From Cyanobacteria bacterium SW_9_44_58 (lineage in GTDB: Bacteria > Cyanobacteriota > Cyanobacteriia > Cyanobacteriales > Rubidibacteraceae), in the NCBI GenBank assembly GCA_003021905.1, contig PXPI01000098.1, forward strand, positions 1 to 34,551: a DNA stretch of 34,551 nt, given 5' to 3'. The notes beneath the pieces were generated by a model, which was not told the origin of the DNA, did not search any database, and saw only the letters and a list, made by a program, of their open reading frames with translations. Of this stretch, positions 24,900 through 34,449 are shown one piece after another. A program made the position numbers and the translations under genes. Positions within the stretch are counted from its first letter, which is position 1, and each line of letters starts with the position of its first letter.

Positions 24900-25370
24900 A
24901 TGCGCTGGCAATTGTTTCTTTCTTTAGCGGTTTCTCTGTTGAGTACTCCCCCTGCTTTGGCACACGGTGTCGCGATCGCGCATCGTCAAACCAGTGCCAT
25001 TGAAATTCGCGCCACCTACGATAACGGCGACCCCATGTCTAATGCCCAAGTTGTTGTTTATGCGCCGAATAATCCTGCCGAACCTTGGTTAAAAGGAACC
25101 ACAACAGAAAAGGGAACTTTTGCCTTTGTTCCGGATCGCAAAATGCAGGGAGCTTGGGATGTAAAAGTTCGTCAGTCGGGGCATGGCGATTTAATTAGTA
25201 TTCCTGTAGAAAATGCAGAAACCGCTTCTTCTCAGCAGACACAAGCCGGTAACCGTTGGCAAGGGGGCAACTATACGCCGTTGCAAAAAGCAATAATGGC
25301 TGCCTTAGGCGTTTGGGGATTTATTGGCACTGGTTTATTCTTTGCCCGTAATAAGTCTAACAATTCATAA
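24900..25370 (+). CDS. NikL/CbiL-like accessory protein of a Ni/Co ECF uptake system
   Basis: A 156-residue secreted, C-terminally anchored protein. The signal peptide ends PALA, so the mature protein would begin His22-Gly-Val-Ala. A carboxypeptidase-regulatory-like beta sandwich follows (about 30-105, with TTTEKGTFAFVPDR), then a Gln/Ser linker and one membrane helix (about 130-149). This layout, and the free N-terminal His, match the extra component found beside CbiM/NikM in nickel and cobalt importers. Its stop overlaps the cbiM start by one base (TAATG), which strongly supports a shared function. Its exact role is not established. Confidence 0.7.
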   Translation: MRWQLFLSLAVSLLSTPPALAHGVAIAHRQTSAIEIRATYDNGDPMSNAQVVVYAPNNPAEPWLKGTTTEKGTFAFVPDRKMQGAWDVKVRQSGHGDLISIPVENAETASSQQTQAGNRWQGGNYTPLQKAIMAALGVWGFIGTGLFFARNKSNNS

Positions 25371-26017
25371 TGCATATTCCAGACGGTATTCTTCCACCGA
25401 CAGTTGCCATTGGCGGTTATGCCATAACTGGCGGGATGATTTGGTATTCTTTGCGAAAAATTAATCAGTATGGCGACCCTAGCGAACAAGTTCCCAGAGC
25501 ATCTTTACTCACAGCGGGCTTTTTTGTCGCTTCCTTAATTCATATTCCCATTCCCCCTTTTAGCATTCATTTAATTTTGAATGGTTTAGTGGGCGTTGTA
25601 TTAGGGTATTTTGCTTTTCCCGCCATTCTCATCGGTTTGTTTTTTCAAGCTGTAATGTTCCAACATGGCGGCCTTTCTTCTTTGGGAGTCAATGCGGCAA
25701 TGATGGGAATCCCTGCTATTTTGGGATATCATTTGTTTCAACTTCATCAATCTTTTCCCAAATCGCAACGGTGGACGAGTGTTTTTGCGTTCCTTGCCGG
25801 CGCCGGGGCGCTAGGACTTTCAGCGATTATTTTCACCGTATTGGTTGTTACAACAATTCCGGCAGACATGAATGCGACATTAGAACGCAATGCGATTTAT
25901 CTGGGGTTAGCGGGTTATAGTGTGCAAGCACTTATTGAAGGGACTTTCACCACGCTCTTAGTGTCCTTTTTCCAACGAGTCAAACCGGAACTGCTCTCTC
26001 ATTCAATTGACAAGTGA
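25370..26017 (+). CDS. cbiM: CbiM/NikM-type Ni2+/Co2+ substrate-binding membrane component
   Basis: A 215-residue CbiM-family S component. The invariant N-terminus MHIPDGILP is present; in the known structure the amino group and His2 of this loop bind the metal together with an inner histidine, for which His67 (SIHLILNGLVG) is the candidate here. His99 in FQHGGL is also conserved-looking. Six or seven hydrophobic helices follow. Normal partners are CbiN, the CbiQ T-component and the CbiO ATPase. None is in the window, so CbiM here either works with an ECF module encoded elsewhere or alone with the NikL-like protein. Ni2+ versus Co2+ cannot be decided. Confidence 0.85.
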   Translation: MHIPDGILPPTVAIGGYAITGGMIWYSLRKINQYGDPSEQVPRASLLTAGFFVASLIHIPIPPFSIHLILNGLVGVVLGYFAFPAILIGLFFQAVMFQHGGLSSLGVNAAMMGIPAILGYHLFQLHQSFPKSQRWTSVFAFLAGAGALGLSAIIFTVLVVTTIPADMNATLERNAIYLGLAGYSVQALIEGTFTTLLVSFFQRVKPELLSHSIDK

Positions 26018-27285: not shown

Positions 27286-28698
27286 TTACTCTTGTTTTAA
27301 TCGCTGATATTGTTCGTGACTGATTCTTCCCGCTTCATATAATGTTTCATTAATTTCGGAAATTGTTAGAACAGAATGAGCACGATAGCCTTGAGATTGC
27401 AAATTATTTTTAACGCCCTTTTCATGATCAATAAAGACAACAATATCTTCTACCTTTAATCCCTGAGATTCAAGTTTTTCTGCCCCTTCGATCGCGCTTT
27501 TGCCGCTAATTAAAATATCATCAATGACAACAACGGTTTCTCCAGGTTCAAAATTGCCTTCAATGACTCGCCTGGTGCCGTGGGCTTTGACTTCTTTTCG
27601 GGGATAAATCATGGGACGATGCAAGCGCAAGGATAATCCGGTAGCTGTGGGAAGCGCTCCATAAGGAATGCCGGCAATGCGATCAAATTGTAAAGTTTCT
27701 AAAATTGCTACATAAGCATTCAAAACTTGTTGGAAAATCTGTGGTTGGGAAATAATTTTTCTTAAATCAATATAATAGGGAAACTTCTCCCCAGAGGCTT
27801 GGATATAATCTCCAAATAAAATACAGTCGAGATCGTAGAGTTGTAAAATTAAAGATTGATGGGAATGTCCCTTCAGCAAACAAACATCGCTTGTCCAAAT
27901 TTGACAGAATCCCTCATTTCCTTGCATGACATCTTGACGTACATTATTAATACTATGATTTAATTCCATCAAATCTTCTTCTAGGGTTTCTTGTTTTAAG
28001 AAATCTTGCGGAATGGGAATTAATAATCCTTCTCCGGTCTGATTAAAACCAGAGGCGACAATTGGGGCAATTTCTGTGGATGTCCATAAACTGCGGGCAA
28101 GGATGAGATGTTCTGGGGCATTTTGGCGGACTTGCCTGAGAACATTGGCATCATTTGTTCCCACTTCCAGGGCGATCTGTTCTGGGGTTCCCCATTTTTG
28201 CACTTCTTTCACCAATTCTAAATAAAGGGGGGAATTGGCATTGGGATAATCTTGGATAACCGAAGCTGTGGGGTTAGAGGTGCGACAAGTAATAAAAACG
28301 GTTTTATCGGGATATAAGAGAAACGGCGCAACTTGATCTTGTCCGGAAAATGGATTAATGGTAATTGCATCAACGTTCCATTTTTCAAATGCGGTTGCTG
28401 CAAAAAGTGTATTTGTATTTAAGTCGCTATGTTTGGCATCTAAAATAATGGGAAGAGAAGAAGGAATTAGAGATAAAATGTTTTCCAACAGTTCCATTCC
28501 GGAAGCGCCCATTGCTTGGTAAAATCCGAATGTTGGCTTGTAGGCGCAAATTTTATCTTGGGTTTTTTCAATAATTAATTGCAACCATTCCCAGGGATCT
28601 GTTCCTGGGGGAATCATTTCAGGATTGGGGTCAAGGCCGAGAATTAGTAAGGTATTATTCTGCGCGATCGCGTGTTCTAATTTATCGGTAAAACTCAT
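27286..28698 (-). CDS. pyrFE: Bifunctional OMP decarboxylase / orotate phosphoribosyltransferase
   Basis: A 470-residue fusion that carries out the last two steps of UMP synthesis in reverse order of domains. Residues 1-270 are an OMP decarboxylase of the long bacterial subfamily (GLDPNPEMIP at 21-30; catalytic DAKHSD at 87-92 with Lys89). Residues about 280-470 are orotate phosphoribosyltransferase, with RKEVKAHGTRRVIEG (catalytic loop, 367-381) and the PRPP motif VVVIDDILISGKS (389-401). Such fusions are known in cyanobacteria. The ATG overlaps the cupredoxin stop by four bases (ATGA), so it is translated from the same mRNA as the copper genes. Confidence 0.95.
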   Translation of the reverse strand: MSFTDKLEHAIAQNNTLLILGLDPNPEMIPPGTDPWEWLQLIIEKTQDKICAYKPTFGFYQAMGASGMELLENILSLIPSSLPIILDAKHSDLNTNTLFAATAFEKWNVDAITINPFSGQDQVAPFLLYPDKTVFITCRTSNPTASVIQDYPNANSPLYLELVKEVQKWGTPEQIALEVGTNDANVLRQVRQNAPEHLILARSLWTSTEIAPIVASGFNQTGEGLLIPIPQDFLKQETLEEDLMELNHSINNVRQDVMQGNEGFCQIWTSDVCLLKGHSHQSLILQLYDLDCILFGDYIQASGEKFPYYIDLRKIISQPQIFQQVLNAYVAILETLQFDRIAGIPYGALPTATGLSLRLHRPMIYPRKEVKAHGTRRVIEGNFEPGETVVVIDDILISGKSAIEGAEKLESQGLKVEDIVVFIDHEKGVKNNLQSQGYRAHSVLTISEINETLYEAGRISHEQYQRLKQE

Positions 28699-29216
28699 GT
28701 TTGTTGATCATTCACAATAATTTTCCCGCGATACATTTTCATACCGCAAGTAAATTCATATTCTCCCGTTTCTTGAGGCGTAAATTCCACACTTGTAATT
28801 TCATTTAATGCTAAATCCGCAGACCGATTAAAATCGGGAATTAATACTTGTTGTAAACAACTGCTGGGATCGCGCCGATGAAAGTTCATTCGCACCGGTT
28901 TCCCTGCCGTCACAATGACTTCTGTGGGATCGCATCCCCCATCTACTGTAATTGTCACCTGTTGGGTATCGTCTTTTTCTTCCGCTTTCTTGGCTGTTTT
29001 TTCGCTAAATAAAAACCACCATAATTCTAAACCGATTAAACCAATGCCGCCGGCAGTAACACCGATTTTAACGGGAAGCGGCTGTTGGATTTTTTGAAAG
29101 GGAGACTCTTGATTCGTATTGGCTTGGGCTGCGTGAGTGGGAACTACTGATAACAATATCAAAGTAATTCCTGTCATGCTTGATAATAAGAAACGCTTGA
29201 TTGGCAATGACAACAT
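28695..29216 (-). CDS. Membrane-anchored cupredoxin-domain protein
   Basis: A 173-residue protein encoded next to copA. Residues 8-28 form a signal or anchor helix (possible cleavage after THA), residues 50-70 a second hydrophobic helix, and about 85-170 a cupredoxin fold. The fold has Cys95, His113, Cys120 and the copper-site-like TCGMKMYRG (Cys157, Met159, Met161). Basic residues after the second helix (KTAKK) favour a cytoplasmic location for the cupredoxin domain by the positive-inside rule, which is unusual for this fold. Similar domains occur fused to copper P-type ATPases. It lies 44 bp after copA and overlaps pyrFE by four bases. It probably binds Cu+ for CopA or buffers it. Confidence 0.75.
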   Translation of the reverse strand: MLSLPIKRFLLSSMTGITLILLSVVPTHAAQANTNQESPFQKIQQPLPVKIGVTAGGIGLIGLELWWFLFSEKTAKKAEEKDDTQQVTITVDGGCDPTEVIVTAGKPVRMNFHRRDPSSCLQQVLIPDFNRSADLALNEITSVEFTPQETGEYEFTCGMKMYRGKIIVNDQQT

Positions 29217-29260: not shown

Positions 29261-31537
29261 TTAATGAAGCTGGAACTTCCGCAACCGTAAGGCATTGGTT
29301 AACACGGAAACCGAACTGAATGCCATGGCTGCCCCAGCAATAATCGGATTCAGCAACCAGCCGAAAATGGGATATAAAATGCCCGCTGCAATCGGAATCC
29401 CGGCCACATTGTAAATAAAGGCAAAAAAGAGATTTTGTCGGATATTGTTCATGGTGGCGCGACTAAGTTGAATCGCTGCGGCAATGCCTTGTAAATCCCC
29501 CGAAATTAGCGTAATATCAGAAGTCGTAATGGCAATATCAGTGCCGGTGCCGATCGCGATCCCAATATCGGCTTGAGCTAAGGCTGGGGCATCATTAATG
29601 CCATCGCCTACCATGGCCACTTGTTTGCCTTCCTGTTGCAGGGCAACGATTTGTTGGGCTTTTTGATCGGGACGAACTTGGGACATGACTCGGGGAATTC
29701 CCACTTGTTGCGCGATCGCGTTGGCCGTTTTTTCATTATCCCCAGTAATCATTGCCACTTCCAAGCCTAACTTCCGCAGTGATTTCACTGCATCGGCAGA
29801 AGAGGGGTTTAGCGTATCCGCAAAGGCCATAATTCCTTCTAACTCTTCTTCTACAGCAATCCAAATGACAGTTTTGCCATCTGCTTCCCATTGTTTTGCT
29901 TTCTCAGCAAAGGGTTGCGTATCAATTCCCAGTTCTTCAAACCAGCGTGCTGTACCGATTTTGATGTTCCAATCGGAGACTGTGGCTTCCACGCCGCTTC
30001 CGGCAACAGCTTGAAAATCTTCGACCGTTCCTTGTAAAGACACCTGTTGGGATTTGGCATAGTCAACCGCCGCTTGGGCTAAGGGATGTTCCGATTGTTG
30101 TTCCACTAATGCCATTAATCGCAGCAACTTTAACTCATTTTTATGTTGACTGCCAAACGTCGTGACAAAATCAGTAACTTTCGGTTTTCCTTCGGTTAAG
30201 GTTCCGGTTTTATCCAAGACAATCGTGTTGAGTTTATAGGCAGCTTCCAGGCTTTCGGCACTTTTGATGAGAATGCCGTTTTCCGCGCCTTTTCCCGTTC
30301 CTACCATCACTGAAGTAGGCGTTGCTAAGCCTAAAGCGCAAGGACAAGCAATAATCAGTACTGCCACCATATTAATTAAGGCGAGGGTGGGATTTCCCAT
30401 GAGGTTAAACCACAGTAGGAAAGTGACGATCGCGATCGCGATCACTGCTGGCACAAACCAACCCGTGACTTGATCCGCTAAATTTTGAATGGGGGCTTTC
30501 GATCCTTGCGCTTGCTGCACCAACTGCACAATCTGCGAGAGTACCGTATCTTTTCCCACACGAGTTGCCCGAAACTTGAAACTGCCCGTTTTATTGATCG
30601 TTGCGCCAACTACCTCATCGCCAGCCGATTTTTGCACGGGAATGCTTTCCCCGGTTACCATACTTTCATCAATGGTAGAACTTCCTTCCACGACTTCCCC
30701 ATCCACAGGAATTTTTTCCCCAGGACGCACTTGAATCATATCGCCGATTTGCACTTGTTGAATGGGAATATCTTTTGCTTGGCCATCACGGATAACACGC
30801 GCTGAACGAGCTTGCAATCCAATCAATTTCCGTATGGCTTCCGACGTTTGTCCTCTTGCCCGATTTTCCAGAAAACGTCCCACTAAAATCAGCGTAATAA
30901 TCACCGCCGCGCTTTCATAATACACTTGCGGTTCCAGTCCTTGACGCCATAAAAAATCAGCAAATAAAGTGGCAAACAGGGAATAGAAGTAAGCGGCGCT
31001 TGTTCCCAATACAATTAAAGTATCCATGGTAGCCGCCCGATGCTTAAAGGCTTTCCAGGCGTTGCGATAAAAGGGATAGCCGCACCAAAACTGTACCGGT
31101 GTTGTCAGTAAAAACTGCAACCAAGGATTATGCAACCAAGCGGGAATCATGGGAATATCCAAGCCCGTCATCACGGGAAGAGACCCCACAATCAGAATGA
31201 TGGAAATGATGCCGCCGACACCAATTTTTCGTTTTAAATTTTTGGATTCGGCTTCTCTGGCAACAACTTCCGCATCTCCCCTGCCAGCCATCATCTCGTC
31301 TTGAGAATACACGGAAGCCCCATAGCCGGCATCCTCTACTGCCCCTTGAATGGTTTCGACAGTTGTTTGTTCCGGATTAAACTGAACCGTTGCTTGTTCC
31401 GCCGCAAAATTAACTTCACATTGTTCAACACCGGAAACGCTGCTAATAGCCTTTTCAATGGCATTGGCACAACCGGCGCAACTCATCCCTTCCAATTTCA
31501 GGGTAGTGGTATCGATAACAGAATCACGTTTTGTCAT
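29261..31537 (-). CDS. copA: Copper-translocating P1B-type ATPase
   Basis: A 758-residue Cu+ exporter. It has one N-terminal heavy-metal-associated domain with GMSCAGCA (Cys20, Cys23), two extra P1B helices, the actuator TGES (295-298), the membrane Cu+ site Cys-Pro-Cys (398-400), the phosphorylated DKTGTLTEG (Asp442), SEHPLAQA in the N-domain and [10 protein letters not shown] in the hinge. The ATG has GGAG eight bases upstream. It follows the multicopper oxidase gene by 59 bp, so both probably arise from the MerR-type promoter near 33060. It could be either a plasma-membrane exporter or a thylakoid supplier (PacS-like); its place among defence genes favours export. Confidence 0.95.
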
Positions 31538-31596: not shown

Positions 31597-33024
31597 TTAA
31601 GATTGCATTGCGATTATTCCCATCATTCCTAATTCTTCATGATCTAAGATATGGCAATGATAAACGGTTTTTCCGACAAAATCTCGAAAGGGAATGCGAA
31701 TGCGAACGCTTTCTCCTCTTGGGACTAAAACTGTATCTTTCCAAGTTCGGTTTTCTACTGCTTGACCATTGCGGCTAACTACCTGAAAGCGATTGGTATG
31801 TAAATGAAAGGGATGATCCATCATTCCTGTATTAATGATTTCCCAATCTTCTACTGTATCCAGGAAAACTCGCGTATCCGTTCGTTGGGAATCATAAGCT
31901 TGTCCATTAATTAAAAATGTCATTCCTTGTCCGGGAACCATGCCATGATTTAACTTAAATTGCCGTACAGTTTTTGGTTCAGGCAATTCTTCCAGGGGAA
32001 TTAATTGTTTCGGTAAAGATAGCGGTTCAATTTCTTCTCCGGAATAGGTTAAGGTGGCGAGGGTTTCTGTTTCGTTGCCTTGATTTTTTCTTTCTCCCAT
32101 CATGCCATTTCCCATCATTCCCATCCCGACACGCTCATAAGGCAGGTTTAAAAGACGATAGCTTCCTGAGGATTGATTCCCTTGAATTAAAACTTCTGCT
32201 CTTTCTCCTGGGGATAATAATAATTCAGATTGCTCGATTGGAACAGAAGTTGCCCCGCCATCAGTAGCAATAAGATAGAAAGGATGATTTTCTAACTGTA
32301 ACCGATAGAAACGGGAAATAGAAGCATTAACCATGCGCAGTCTTAATAAGCCTCCCTTCGAGATCGAAAAGGAGGGATCCATTTGTCCATTGACTGTTGC
32401 CAATGATCCTTCTCTTCCCAGCATCATCCCTTTTTTCGTTTTTTGCCAATTCAGATCGAAATCTTTAAGGAAAACAAATTCTTCTTGGGCTTGTTTAATT
32501 TCGGGAATTTCATCCAATTTGCCGCGCACCGCAAAAGTTCCTCCTAATCCGCCGAAACATTGATCAGCAACATAACCGTGCAAGTGAGGATGATAAAAAG
32601 CAGTAGTGCTATGATGATTTTCGGGAATAGTAAATTCGTAGGTGTAGGTTTCTCCGGGAGAAAGTTGTAAAAAGATATGATCTGCCGGTTCTTGAGGAGA
32701 AATATGCAATCCATGGTAATGGATATTGGTAGGTTGTGATAAACGATTTGTTGCGCGTATGCGAACCGTATCCCCTGGCGAGGCTTCTAAACGAGGGCCG
32801 GGAATTTGTTGATTATAACTGAGTAAATTCCCACTGTGCCCATTAAAAGAAAATGTGCCCGAACCAATATTGAGATCCGCTTCTAACAGCCTATTTTCAC
32901 TTTTTAAAACTGGTGCGGCATTAGAAGAAGAGCTGGAGTTTGATCCTTGATTCATGCCGCACTGGGCAAGTAAAACACCTCCCAAACTACTGGCGCTTAG
33001 AAATAAAAACTGTCTGCGTTGCAT
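31597..33024 (-). CDS. Multicopper oxidase, Tat-exported, CueO/laccase-like
   Basis: A 475-residue three-domain multicopper oxidase. Copper ligands are complete: HYH (102, 104), HPHLHG (145, 147, 149), HPFHLH (404, 407, 409) and HCHILDHEELGMM (His456, Cys457, His458, His462 with axial Met467). It begins MQRRQFLFL, a twin-arginine motif, followed by LLAQC (Cys22), so it may be a Tat-exported lipoprotein; a Ser-rich linker follows. A Met-rich insert GMGMMGNGMMG (300-310) recalls the Cu+-binding Met loop of CueO, which oxidises toxic Cu+ to Cu2+. The gene is first in the copA unit and directly downstream of a MerR-type promoter. Confidence 0.93.
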   Translation of the reverse strand: MQRRQFLFLSASSLGGVLLAQCGMNQGSNSSSSSNAAPVLKSENRLLEADLNIGSGTFSFNGHSGNLLSYNQQIPGPRLEASPGDTVRIRATNRLSQPTNIHYHGLHISPQEPADHIFLQLSPGETYTYEFTIPENHHSTTAFYHPHLHGYVADQCFGGLGGTFAVRGKLDEIPEIKQAQEEFVFLKDFDLNWQKTKKGMMLGREGSLATVNGQMDPSFSISKGGLLRLRMVNASISRFYRLQLENHPFYLIATDGGATSVPIEQSELLLSPGERAEVLIQGNQSSGSYRLLNLPYERVGMGMMGNGMMGERKNQGNETETLATLTYSGEEIEPLSLPKQLIPLEELPEPKTVRQFKLNHGMVPGQGMTFLINGQAYDSQRTDTRVFLDTVEDWEIINTGMMDHPFHLHTNRFQVVSRNGQAVENRTWKDTVLVPRGESVRIRIPFRDFVGKTVYHCHILDHEELGMMGIIAMQS

Positions 33025-33051: not shown

Positions 33052-33083
33052 AGCATAAACTCTCCAGTTAGGAGGAGAGTCTA
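33052..33083 (-). promoter_or_regulatory. MerR-type promoter and dyad of the multicopper oxidase/copA unit
   Basis: On the minus strand TAGACT (33083-33078) and TATGCT (33057-33052) are separated by 20 bp, longer than the normal 17 and typical of MerR-activated promoters. The spacer holds a 22-bp dyad, ACTCTCC-N8-GGAGAGT (33059-33080), with perfect seven-base arms. It reads toward the multicopper oxidase, whose ATG is about 28 bp downstream of the -10. Confidence 0.75.
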
Positions 33084-33205: not shown

Positions 33206-33637
33206 TTAAGAATCACGATTGTTTTGAATAATCGGACAAATGCGATCATCGGGAGGAATTTCTAAAATCGGATCTGCCCCGGCAAGCAATGATTGAATTT
33301 GATTTTGCAGATGTTGTAAAGCTTGAATTTGATCATTAATTTGAGCAACTTTATCTTCTAGCTTTTGTTTCACATCTTGACAAGGCAACTCACCGCGATC
33401 GCGCACCGCTAAAAACTCTTTAATTTCACTTAAACTCATCCCTAAACTTTGTGCCTGTTTGATAAATTGCAAGCGAATTAGGGTCATTTTTTCCTCAAAT
33501 AAACGAAACCCGCCGCGCGATCGTTTCACTGCATGAATTAAACCTAAATCTTCATAGTAGCGGATGGTTTTAATGGATAAACCACTGCTTTTACTTAGTT
33601 CACCAATTTTAATTAAATTAGAAACGGTTGTTGACAT
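33206..33637 (-). CDS. MerR-family metal-responsive regulator
   Basis: A 143-residue MerR protein. The winged helix-turn-helix (KIGELSKSSGLSIKTIRYYEDLGLI, about 10-34) and wing RGGFRLFEE are standard, followed by SLGMSLSEIKEFL and a long dimerisation coiled coil (about 85-118). Putative metal ligands differ from CueR: Cys86 (GELPCQDV) lies where divalent sensors such as ZntR/CadR have cysteine and CueR has serine, and the C-terminus keeps only one cysteine, Cys134 in ICPII, lacking the first cysteine of the CueR loop. Its position between the small membrane-protein pair and the copper genes, plus two MerR-type promoters nearby, make it the likely local activator. The metal it senses is unsure. 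Confidence 0.9.
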   Translation of the reverse strand: MSTTVSNLIKIGELSKSSGLSIKTIRYYEDLGLIHAVKRSRGGFRLFEEKMTLIRLQFIKQAQSLGMSLSEIKEFLAVRDRGELPCQDVKQKLEDKVAQINDQIQALQHLQNQIQSLLAGADPILEIPPDDRICPIIQNNRDS

Positions 33638-33676
33638 ATTTAAATTGCCCTAATCATTGATCATTATATGTATAAA

Positions 33677-33964
33677 TTAGCGCTGACGTTTTTTCGGTGG
33701 ACGCATTTGCAACCACATCGCAATACCAGTGACAACTAAAATTAGAACACCAAAAGCGTTTAAGAATGGATAAATAAATGTCAAATCTACAGCCCCAAAT
33801 TTCCCTTTATGTAAATTCAATAACCAAAGAAACTGTTGCGTTTCTCCTGTCAGATTGGCAATTTGAAACAAAGACCCCGTAATTAAAGTAAGCAATAAAG
33901 GAAGTACCATAATTGGGGCAAACCAGCGATGAATTTGTCGTAAACGAGGCTTATTAAATGCCAT
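33677..33964 (-). CDS. Small PepSY-TM-like membrane protein
   Basis: A 95-residue protein with two membrane helices (about 17-35 and 64-85). The start KPRLRQIHRWFAPIMVLPLLLTLITG, with His12 and Trp13, followed by TGETQQFLWLLNLHKGKFG (His52) and a final GIAMWLQMRPPKKRQR, is the pattern of PepSY-associated transmembrane proteins, some of which carry haem and reduce metal ions. His12 and His52 are candidate haem or metal ligands. At this length it is a minimal version with no PepSY domain. It is 3 bp from the upstream secreted anchor protein and 39 bp before merR. A role in metal reduction or transport is only inferred. Confidence 0.65.
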   Translation of the reverse strand: MAFNKPRLRQIHRWFAPIMVLPLLLTLITGSLFQIANLTGETQQFLWLLNLHKGKFGAVDLTFIYPFLNAFGVLILVVTGIAMWLQMRPPKKRQR

Positions 33965-33967
33965 AAT

Positions 33968-34390
33968 TTATTGGTGGATTCGTTTTCTTAGAGCGTACAG
34001 AAAAAAGGGAGTTGTAATAATTAGACCCAGTATTGTTTCTCCTAAGGGCGGAATTTTACTAATTGTTACAACTTGGGCTTGTGTTGTCGATTGTTCTTCT
34101 ACTGCTTTAGTTGCTGTTTGATTGTTGATTTCAGAGCTAGATTTTTGAGACTGATTAGGGGAAGAAGATTGCTTTTTTTTAGTAGAAGAAGTATTGGATT
34201 GTGATTGATGATCGGTTTGAAATTGCTCAGAGGAATTAGATTCGGCTTGATTGGCTGAAGAATCCGTATTTTTACCCTCTGTTTCTTCTTTGTTTTCAAA
34301 GTGTCCTGAGTGAGCCAGCACTGGTGCACTAAGCAAAGCTGTTCCAGCACTAATTAAAGTATGTTGAGCGGATTTTGTGAGTTTCATCAT
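33968..34390 (-). CDS. Secreted, tail-anchored, low-complexity protein with His at its mature N-terminus
   Basis: A 140-residue protein of no family I recognise. A signal peptide (about 1-26) ends APVLA, so the mature chain would begin His-Ser-Gly-His-Phe. Residues about 32-108 are Ser/Gln/Asn/Glu-rich and presumably disordered. One membrane helix (about 116-133, ETILGLIITTPFFLYAL) ends in RKRIHQ, giving a periplasmic tether with the His-rich tip outside. It starts with ATGATG (start 34390), the nearest ribosome site is weak, and it is translated almost coupled (3 bp) to the PepSY-like protein. A MerR-type promoter stands directly upstream, so it is probably metal induced and could present copper or another metal at the membrane. 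Confidence 0.6.
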   Translation of the reverse strand: MMKLTKSAQHTLISAGTALLSAPVLAHSGHFENKEETEGKNTDSSANQAESNSSEQFQTDHQSQSNTSSTKKKQSSSPNQSQKSSSEINNQTATKAVEEQSTTQAQVVTISKIPPLGETILGLIITTPFFLYALRKRIHQ

Positions 34391-34417
34391 TTTTATTGGA
34401 GCTCAGAGTTGATAACT

Positions 34418-34449
34418 ATTGTAATTTCTCTACTTGACTGGAGACTCAA
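34418..34449 (-). promoter_or_regulatory. Second MerR-type promoter, upstream of the His-protein/PepSY/merR unit
   Basis: On the minus strand TTGAGT (34449-34444) and TACAAT (34423-34418) are again 20 bp apart. Across the spacer lies a degenerate copy of the dyad found at 33059-33080: AGTCTCC-N8-AGAGAAA, with the left arm 6 of 7 and the right arm 4 of 7 identical. The start codon is about 28 bp downstream of the -10, as at the other promoter. Confidence 0.6.

Follow-up and report, generated by a model that had tools for sequence, protein, structure and literature searches.

A conserved cyanobacterial pair of small membrane proteins, one starting with histidine and one half the size of a PepSY_TM reductase, in a possible MerR-controlled copper module

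Gene organization at the locus

The stretch of DNA analyzed here, hereafter the window, is the entire contig C98 (34,551 bp) from the 2.94-Mb genome of Cyanobacteria bacterium SW_9_44_58. The system under study is a unit of three consecutive genes on its - strand: gene 1, encoding a tethered protein predicted to start with histidine once processed, gene 2, encoding a small relative of PepSY_TM proteins (hereafter mini-PepSY), and a merR-family regulator gene. The original prediction, made from the sequence, had described three packed genes behind one MerR-type promoter; the genes were confirmed at the coordinates given, all on the - strand, with intergenic gaps of 3 bp and 39 bp, and the promoter was located at 34449-34418 (TTGAGT-20 bp-TACAAT). 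Another 181 bp separate merR from a multicopper oxidase (MCO) gene, mco, which is followed by copA and then by the gene of a cupredoxin-domain protein. The features are the following.

33968..34390, - strand: gene 1, 140 aa, predicted to be secreted and C-terminally anchored, with the mature N-terminus His-Ser-Gly-His
34313..34390, - strand: predicted signal peptide of gene 1, residues 1-26 (VLA before H27, by eye; A-H conserved in homologues)
34310..34312, - strand: H27, with which mature gene 1 is predicted to start; a second His is at mature +4
33974..34045, - strand: C-terminal transmembrane helix of gene 1, residues 116-139, with conserved GE...P
33677..33964, - strand: gene 2, mini PepSY_TM two-helix protein, 95 aa
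33929..33931, - strand: H12 of gene 2, which the positive-inside rule puts on the cytoplasmic side
33809..33811, - strand: H52 of gene 2, in an LHxGxFG motif, which the positive-inside rule puts on the periplasmic side
33206..33637, - strand: merR-family metal regulator, 143 aa, with C86 and C134
34418..34449, - strand: MerR-type promoter/operator of gene 1, TTGAGT-20-TACAAT, imperfect dyad
33052..33083, - strand: MerR-type promoter/operator of the mco operon, TAGACT-20-TATGCT, 7/7 dyad
31597..33024, - strand: multicopper oxidase with the Met-rich stretch GMGMMGNGMMG, CueO-like yet below the CueO cut-off
29261..31537, - strand: copA P-type ATPase with HMA CxxC, CPC, YN and MxxSS
28695..29216, - strand: cupredoxin-domain protein, weak EfeO match

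Judged by their signatures, these neighbors are copper-type, the oxidase by its Met-rich stretch and the ATPase by its CPC, YN and MxxSS motifs (positions 398, 709 and 738; TIGR01511, 668.7 bits vs a cut-off of 397), which we take to be those of a P1B-1 Cu(I)-type ATPase.

A conserved gene pair in cyanobacteria

Across 388 genomes, the mini-PepSY profile gives hits in 233, and the gene 1 profile (A2, 22 members picked for a hydrophobic C-terminus and for passing a filter on the motif A-H...G/H) matches 38 at E <= 0.01. At E <= 1e-5, gene 1 occurs at 31 places in 27 genomes, all of which (27/27) have a strong mini-PepSY hit. At 29 of these 31 places mini-PepSY directly follows gene 1 on the same strand, with a gap of <200 bp (one of the 29 copies, in G350, is a remnant), so the side-by-side occurrence of the two small proteins in other cyanobacteria, suggested as a check of the original prediction, is borne out. 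The two unpaired places (G295 and G348) adjoin a gene resembling mnmA by eye; the gene 1 relatives of loci L165 and L166 adjoin an apparent mnmA, with no mini-PepSY in the 12 kb examined.

Two sets of mini-PepSY loci were used for comparison. The sampled set covers 86 of 103 strong mini-PepSY places (hand count, window included) and comprises 29 pair and 57 lone loci; the named set covers 80 of 115 loci, 45 pair and 35 lone, its pairs being accepted with gaps of up to 1253 bp (in Moorena, a gene fragment and an inserted gene), and a strict limit would lower this pair count. The two genes overlap by 4 bp in 7 of the 29 sampled and 9 of the 45 named pairs. The named sequence closest to the window mini-PepSY belongs to a Halothece metagenome-assembled genome (MAG) and is 83% identical. 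In a tree of 131 mini-PepSY proteins, from which identical proteins and those <80 aa were excluded, the pair label needs 14 changes, at least six of them on supported branches. Gene 1 and mini-PepSY are a real, conserved and old cyanobacterial module, membrane-bound by prediction, and other species conserve the gene order, the His motifs and the operators of the unit, which takes it beyond chance. As the original prediction supposed, no description of this pair was found in the open-access literature on PepSY in cyanobacteria or with copper. Its parts derive from known kinds, namely the PepSY_TM fold and MerR copper regulons, and the combination of a half-size form with a tethered His partner appears to be new.

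Several variations on this arrangement were observed. An LTXXQ/CpxP-like gene lies between gene 1 and mini-PepSY in L191 and L198 and just upstream of gene 1 in L169 (family assignment by Pfam in L198). In a genus mate of the window organism, G150 (locus L049, 5553-6279, - strand), mini-PepSY and merR stand beside a Ca-type P-type ATPase gene, by eye. Five lone mini-PepSY genes (L037, L107, L118, L121 and L128) adjoin an oleate-hydratase gene (annotated in L037, with the same protein in L118) or the gene of an oxidoreductase that is NDH-2-like by eye, hinting at other redox roles. Among viral contigs, 100 stretches matched a pattern and none was confirmed.

The N-terminal histidine of gene 1

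The architecture proposed for gene 1 is recovered by prediction: a VLA-type site before H27, a mature HSGH start, a linker and a C-terminal helix. In its AlphaFold2 model, built from a 28-row alignment, confidence is low up to about residue 110, and helix 116-139 is the single confident one. No family in Pfam or NCBIfam matches gene 1 above its curated cut-off. The matches below cut-off were to unrelated families, probably driven by low complexity, and were rejected.

In all 40 distinct proteins (40/40) of profile A2 and of alignment A5, the latter being 28 rows hand-picked from 45 hits in the named set, the residue at the predicted cleavage site (Ala in 38 cases, Gly in two) is directly followed by His, and another His stands at mature +4, +5 or +6. 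As the A2 rows had been chosen with the A-H filter, this motif is there partly by construction, and it was recounted among the gene 1 frames that had not been selected by motif, 32 of 38 of which carry it. Altogether, [A/G/S]-His followed by His at +4/+5/+6 is present in 55 of 61 distinct gene 1 frames beside mini-PepSY vs 55 of 987 among the remaining 80-160 aa frames of the named loci. Five of the six motif-free frames are without their N-terminus (L163, L184, L185, L195 and L206), and the sixth, L160, starts too early, AHDGH being present outside the scanned stretch.

A copper ligand at a free N-terminal His, if gene 1 is processed as predicted, would be a likeness to the CopC-like and His-brace copper proteins. 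CopC-type proteins are folded beta-barrels, whereas gene 1 has no confident structure outside its C-terminal helix, and it also differs from these proteins in having no above-cut-off family match.

Two loci contain a divergent soluble form of gene 1 beside mini-PepSY (L123, 6401-6640; L127, 6397-6618), with a signal peptide, SHEGHSH, a charged sequence and no anchor; RppAB-type genes are adjacent in both, and PcoAB are nearby in L123 and at a distance of about 4-5 kb in L127. The window itself encodes a second protein with a predicted His-starting mature form (LA|HGVAIAH) and a C-terminal hydrophobic stretch (24900-26017, + strand); the beginning of a CbiM-type cobalt/nickel transporter gene overlaps with its gene.

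Mini-PepSY as a half-size relative of PepSY_TM proteins

Gene 2 had been described as a 95-residue, two-helix PepSY_TM-like protein with two candidate ligand histidines, and this description stands. Its model (mean predicted local distance difference test score 87.8) has helices at 5-39, 42-53 and 65-86, i.e., a hairpin with a short helix between. H12 and H52 are its sole His residues and are nearly invariant: of 87 homologues, 83 have His at the H12 position (Lys in 2, gaps in 2) and 86 at that of H52 (1 gap). Charges at both ends would place the termini in the cytoplasm, and hence H12 inside and H52 outside.

The window protein matches PepSY_TM (PF03929) with E = 8e-4 and 19.8 bits, below the 28.8-bit cut-off, and all 62 scanned homologues (62/62) match this family at E <= 0.01. 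With its 95 aa and three modelled helices, it does not have the PepSY_TM hallmark of at least four transmembrane (TM) helices with extracytoplasmic PepSY domain(s). H12 and H52 do correspond, on the sides given by the positive-inside rule, to the conserved His found near both membrane faces in this family. The mini-PepSY profile aligns to the final LHxGxxG...TG..W part of full-length cyanobacterial PepSY_TM proteins, with H52 on the motif His, and the TM1 motif H...TG, which includes H12, is common to both by inspection. One of these full-length proteins aligns in turn with FoxB (7ABW) at E 1e-26, four His falling under His. A sequence search of the PDB with the mini-PepSY profile returned nothing significant, and no full-length PepSY_TM protein was found in the window's own genome at E <= 0.001. 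With the DUF4405 profile, the window protein gives E 0.075, below cut-off, and 8 of 62 homologues give weak matches at E <= 0.01.

FoxB is described as binding two haems, each between two conserved His, and CrpH as a PepSY_TM protein proposed to be a periplasmic copper reductase (both PMC13038864). Mini-PepSY is like FoxB (PDB 7ABW) and CrpH in its TM1 His followed by TG, in the LHxGxxG...TG..W of the last helix and in the conserved His on both faces. It differs from them in its half length, with two helices, no PepSY domain and no cavity, in that it would need to dimerize, and in having a separate tethered His partner. A mini-PepSY dimer would restore four helices and four His. Such homodimerization has been modelled for FezC, a ferrosome cytochrome, in which it forms the haem sites and whose purified form shows haem b spectra (PMC11334425). 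Mini-PepSY would resemble FezC as a membrane cytochrome with haem sites formed by a possible homodimer and with a proposed metal redox change. FezC is DUF4405-like and belongs to an iron organelle, no His-starting partner appears in the passages of PMC11334425 consulted, and the likeness is one of analogy.

Gene 1 is not the only His-starting candidate partner. In four small picocyanobacterial genomes, presumably marine Synechococcus (L264, L266, L267 and L275), a divergent mini-PepSY is preceded by a secreted HGKG/HGRG protein, which is DUF3721 by Pfam in both loci scanned (L266 and L267). In L264 and L275 the sequence ALA-HGKG implies that the processed form would start with His. The DUF3721-type gene and mini-PepSY overlap by 4 bp in L266, L267 and L275. 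DUF411 adjoins mini-PepSY in L265, L266 and L267; MCO and MerR genes are also present in L265 and L267, and a DUF305 gene in L267. No DUF3721-like frame was found in L265, and no paper on DUF3721 in the open-access literature. This handful of hand-chosen loci suggests that mini-PepSY has a general role with His-starting partners.

The MerR regulator and a shared operator pattern

The regulator matches the MerR profiles PF09278 (3e-21) and PF00376 (6e-13), and an operator dyad lies inside the 20-bp spacer, as expected of the MerR family. Its C134 aligns with Cys120 of CueR, there is no equivalent of Cys112, C86 replaces Ser77 (CueR numbering), and the CueR cut-off scores are missed. C86 aligns with a Cys of the lead sensor PbrR and with a Ser of CueR.

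The gene 1 and mco promoters both have a 20-bp spacer, both end 27 bp before the start codon, and they have TNGANTCTCC-N9-GAGANNTTANNNT in common. The match of TNGANTCTCC-N9-GAGANNTTANNNT to these two sites proves nothing by itself, because the pattern was written from them. In a Halothece MAG (L182), the simpler pattern GANTCTC-N10-GAGARNT has two matches, one ahead of gene 1 and one ahead of mco, vs none in 200 shuffles of the locus. Among 283 loci, 10 have the operator pattern: the window, in four overlapping copies, and six others, L182, L187, L189, L190, L191 and L198. The site precedes DUF411-MCO-MerR-gene 1-mini-PepSY in L190 and L198 (with an LTXXQ-type gene before mini-PepSY in L198), MerR-gene 1-LTXXQ-like gene-mini-PepSY in L191, and merR in L187 and L189. 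In Waterburya and Xenococcus, DUF411, MCO, merR, gene 1 and mini-PepSY follow one operator-like site in the same direction, and in a Halothece relative a DUF411 gene stands between mini-PepSY and merR. The window's own genome contains six matches to the short pattern, two being the gene 1 and mco sites; another, C5:693, was rejected as an operator, lying inside an apparent sensor-kinase gene (by eye), and for this reason the short pattern alone is no proof of an operator. A sigma-70 scan, which does not cover 20-bp spacers, gave 3 promoter-like sites vs 4.2 expected.

The unit had been thought to be controlled by its own regulator. By the operator pattern that it shares with mco-copA, it seems instead to belong, together with mco-copA, to a regulon of two operons and not to be an isolated device with a regulator to itself. 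CueR-type copper regulons (CopA, a CueO-type oxidase and MerR) are similar in gene content and in their MerR-type operators with 20-bp spacers, the difference being that the window regulator is not CueR by its cysteines. We know of no counterpart of the extra gene 1/mini-PepSY pair in CueR regulons.

Linkage with copper genes

Copper effectors were defined as PcoA, PcoB, MCO, DUF411, cupredoxin or CopA, and regulators as MerR or RppAB, within 6 kb; the E-value limits for these labels were set after the unfiltered table had been viewed, and the counts are without phylogenetic correction except in the tree-controlled test. In the sampled set, a copper effector or MerR/RppAB is near 24 of 29 pair vs 9 of 57 lone loci (p 1.7e-9), and a copper effector alone near 17/29 vs 7/57. 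Counted by genus, copper or regulator genes accompany 12 of 14 pair vs 7 of 33 lone cases (p 6e-5) and copper effectors 10/14 vs 5/33. That the pair might occur mostly away from metal genes, the outcome named beforehand as speaking against a metal function, is not what the sampled set shows; in the named set, 23 of 45 pair loci do lie away from the listed genes, among them those of the Crocosphaera group and Moorena.

At the genome level and without phylogenetic correction, DUF411 is present in 18 of 27 genomes with gene 1 vs 96 of 361 others (p 3.5e-5); none was found in the window's own genome. At least 15 of 132 DUF411 places are within 1 kb of mini-PepSY (hand comparison). A Pseudomonas aeruginosa DUF411 protein is named among copper-stress responders (PMC6444534). 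On a plasmid of Stanieria PCC 7437, a pcoA-type MCO gene, copB, gene 1 and mini-PepSY stand in a row, and on plasmids of Picosynechococcus PCC 73109 and NIES-970 a His/Met-rich, apparently secreted gene product and mini-PepSY are encoded beside rppAB-type genes, a copA-type MCO gene and copB. This Picosynechococcus upstream gene gave no match to the gene 1 profile.

Proposed mechanism

From the computed gene pairing, motif conservation, shared operator pattern and half-protein homology, we infer a MerR-controlled copper module with a haem electron path and a tethered His arm, a reading that we put forward tentatively and whose dimer, haem, copper binding and reduction are its inferred parts. 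Metal stress would lead MerR to turn on both operons, the gene 1 unit and mco-copA. Mini-PepSY, which has the size of half a PepSY_TM reductase minus the PepSY domain, would pair as two copies, in which H12/H12' at the cytoplasmic face and H52/H52' at the periplasmic face would each hold a b-type haem, thereby making a transmembrane electron path. The free N-terminal His of gene 1 and its second His at +4 to +6 would bind copper; the disordered linker would let this arm reach the periplasmic haem or the neighboring CopA or oxidase, the TM helix keeping it beside mini-PepSY. Cu(II) would then be reduced to Cu(I) at the outer face, and Cu(I) fed to CopA/RND export or to metallation of the oxidase.

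The components of this proposal are of unequal strength. The pair very likely belongs to a co-regulated metal-response module, copper is probably its main metal, and we lean slightly toward mini-PepSY being a haem-binding dimer. Reduction of Cu(II) by the module is doubtful and the weakest step, because the neighboring oxidase is expected to run the opposite way.

Points against the proposal and alternative explanations

Several observations weigh against this copper redox module. The linkage is weaker in the named set, where copper or regulator genes are near 22 of 45 pair vs 9 of 35 lone loci (p 0.03) and copper effectors near 12/45 vs 7/35 (p 0.34), and the tree-controlled linkage test, with six supported contrasts, which are too few, was not significant (median p of 0.25 for a copper effector and 1 with regulators). 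By profile, the window regulator is a metal-type MerR, and by its aligned ligands it is not CueR. Neither Foldseek nor VIA-align gave a significant match of the two-helix model to PepSY_TM or other structures, VIA-align returning only common helical arrangements, which is uninformative for a hairpin. Eight gene 1 homologues (L071, L084, L190, L191, L198, L220, L221 and L255) have only 4-20 residues ahead of the A-H motif and lack an obvious signal peptide. In the genus mate G150, which has mini-PepSY and merR, neither gene 1 nor a match to the operator pattern is present. Finally, a reductase beside a probable cuprous oxidase would counteract it.

The main rival, which we regard as unlikely, is a non-redox role in copper buffering or oxidase maturation, with gene 1 passing copper to the MCO or CopA and mini-PepSY serving as a dock whose His are structural or metal ligands. 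A CueO-like or PcoA-like MCO is indeed found within 6 kb of 12 of 29 pair vs 2 of 57 lone loci, and the terminus of gene 1 is metal-ligand-like; however, 17 of the 29 sampled pair loci are without an MCO within 6 kb (some contigs end early), mini-PepSY has other partners too, and its two His fit the PepSY_TM His motifs.

It is quite unlikely that the pair is a redox or haem module without copper specificity, i.e., a general small membrane cytochrome serving another metal (a divalent one, given the MerR cysteines) or general envelope stress. Such a role would account for the far wider occurrence of mini-PepSY (233/388 genomes vs 38/388 for gene 1), for lone copies that often stand beside unrelated genes, for the PbrR-like C86 at a CueR Ser and for the named pair loci away from the listed genes (23/45). 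Against it are the copper-type CopA, MCO and DUF411 neighbors under a common operator pattern in the window and the Halothece relative, and the PcoA/PcoB-type neighbors on plasmids.

Very improbable is a signalling accessory through which the pair would sense periplasmic metal and tune the MerR or RppAB regulator: these regulators are near 13 of 29 sampled pair vs 5 of 57 lone loci and merR is divergent to gene 1 in several loci, but no signalling domain is present, the regulators vary between loci, and MerR proteins need no partner to sense metal in the cytoplasm. Chance neighborhood or hitch-hiking on copper islands without joint function, which would agree with the non-significant phylogeny-controlled linkage, can practically be dismissed in view of the 29/31 adjacencies of two diverging genes over many genera and of the 4-bp overlaps.

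Implications

Should the proposed copper redox module exist, cyanobacteria would gain a minimal membrane-spanning enzyme of copper redox chemistry, and the tethered N-terminal His would be a copper ligand of a new type; a hypothetical gene pair found on many chromosomes and some copper plasmids would be explained, a step would be added to cyanobacterial copper control, and mini-PepSY would serve as a very small model for the diheme core of PepSY_TM proteins. In a bolder form, which we consider rather unlikely, mini-PepSY would be the working half of a FoxB-type reductase, a symmetric two-haem wire only as a homodimer, with interchangeable secreted His-starting partners (the gene 1 family and DUF3721), the whole forming a widespread and so far undescribed cyanobacterial copper redox device. 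If true, this half-reductase would illustrate a possible origin of the duplicated PepSY_TM fold.

Additional observation in the window

Apart from these genes, the window encodes on its - strand (27286-28698) a 470-aa protein uniting orotidine monophosphate (OMP) decarboxylase and phosphoribosyltransferase domains, a pyrF-pyrE-like fusion.

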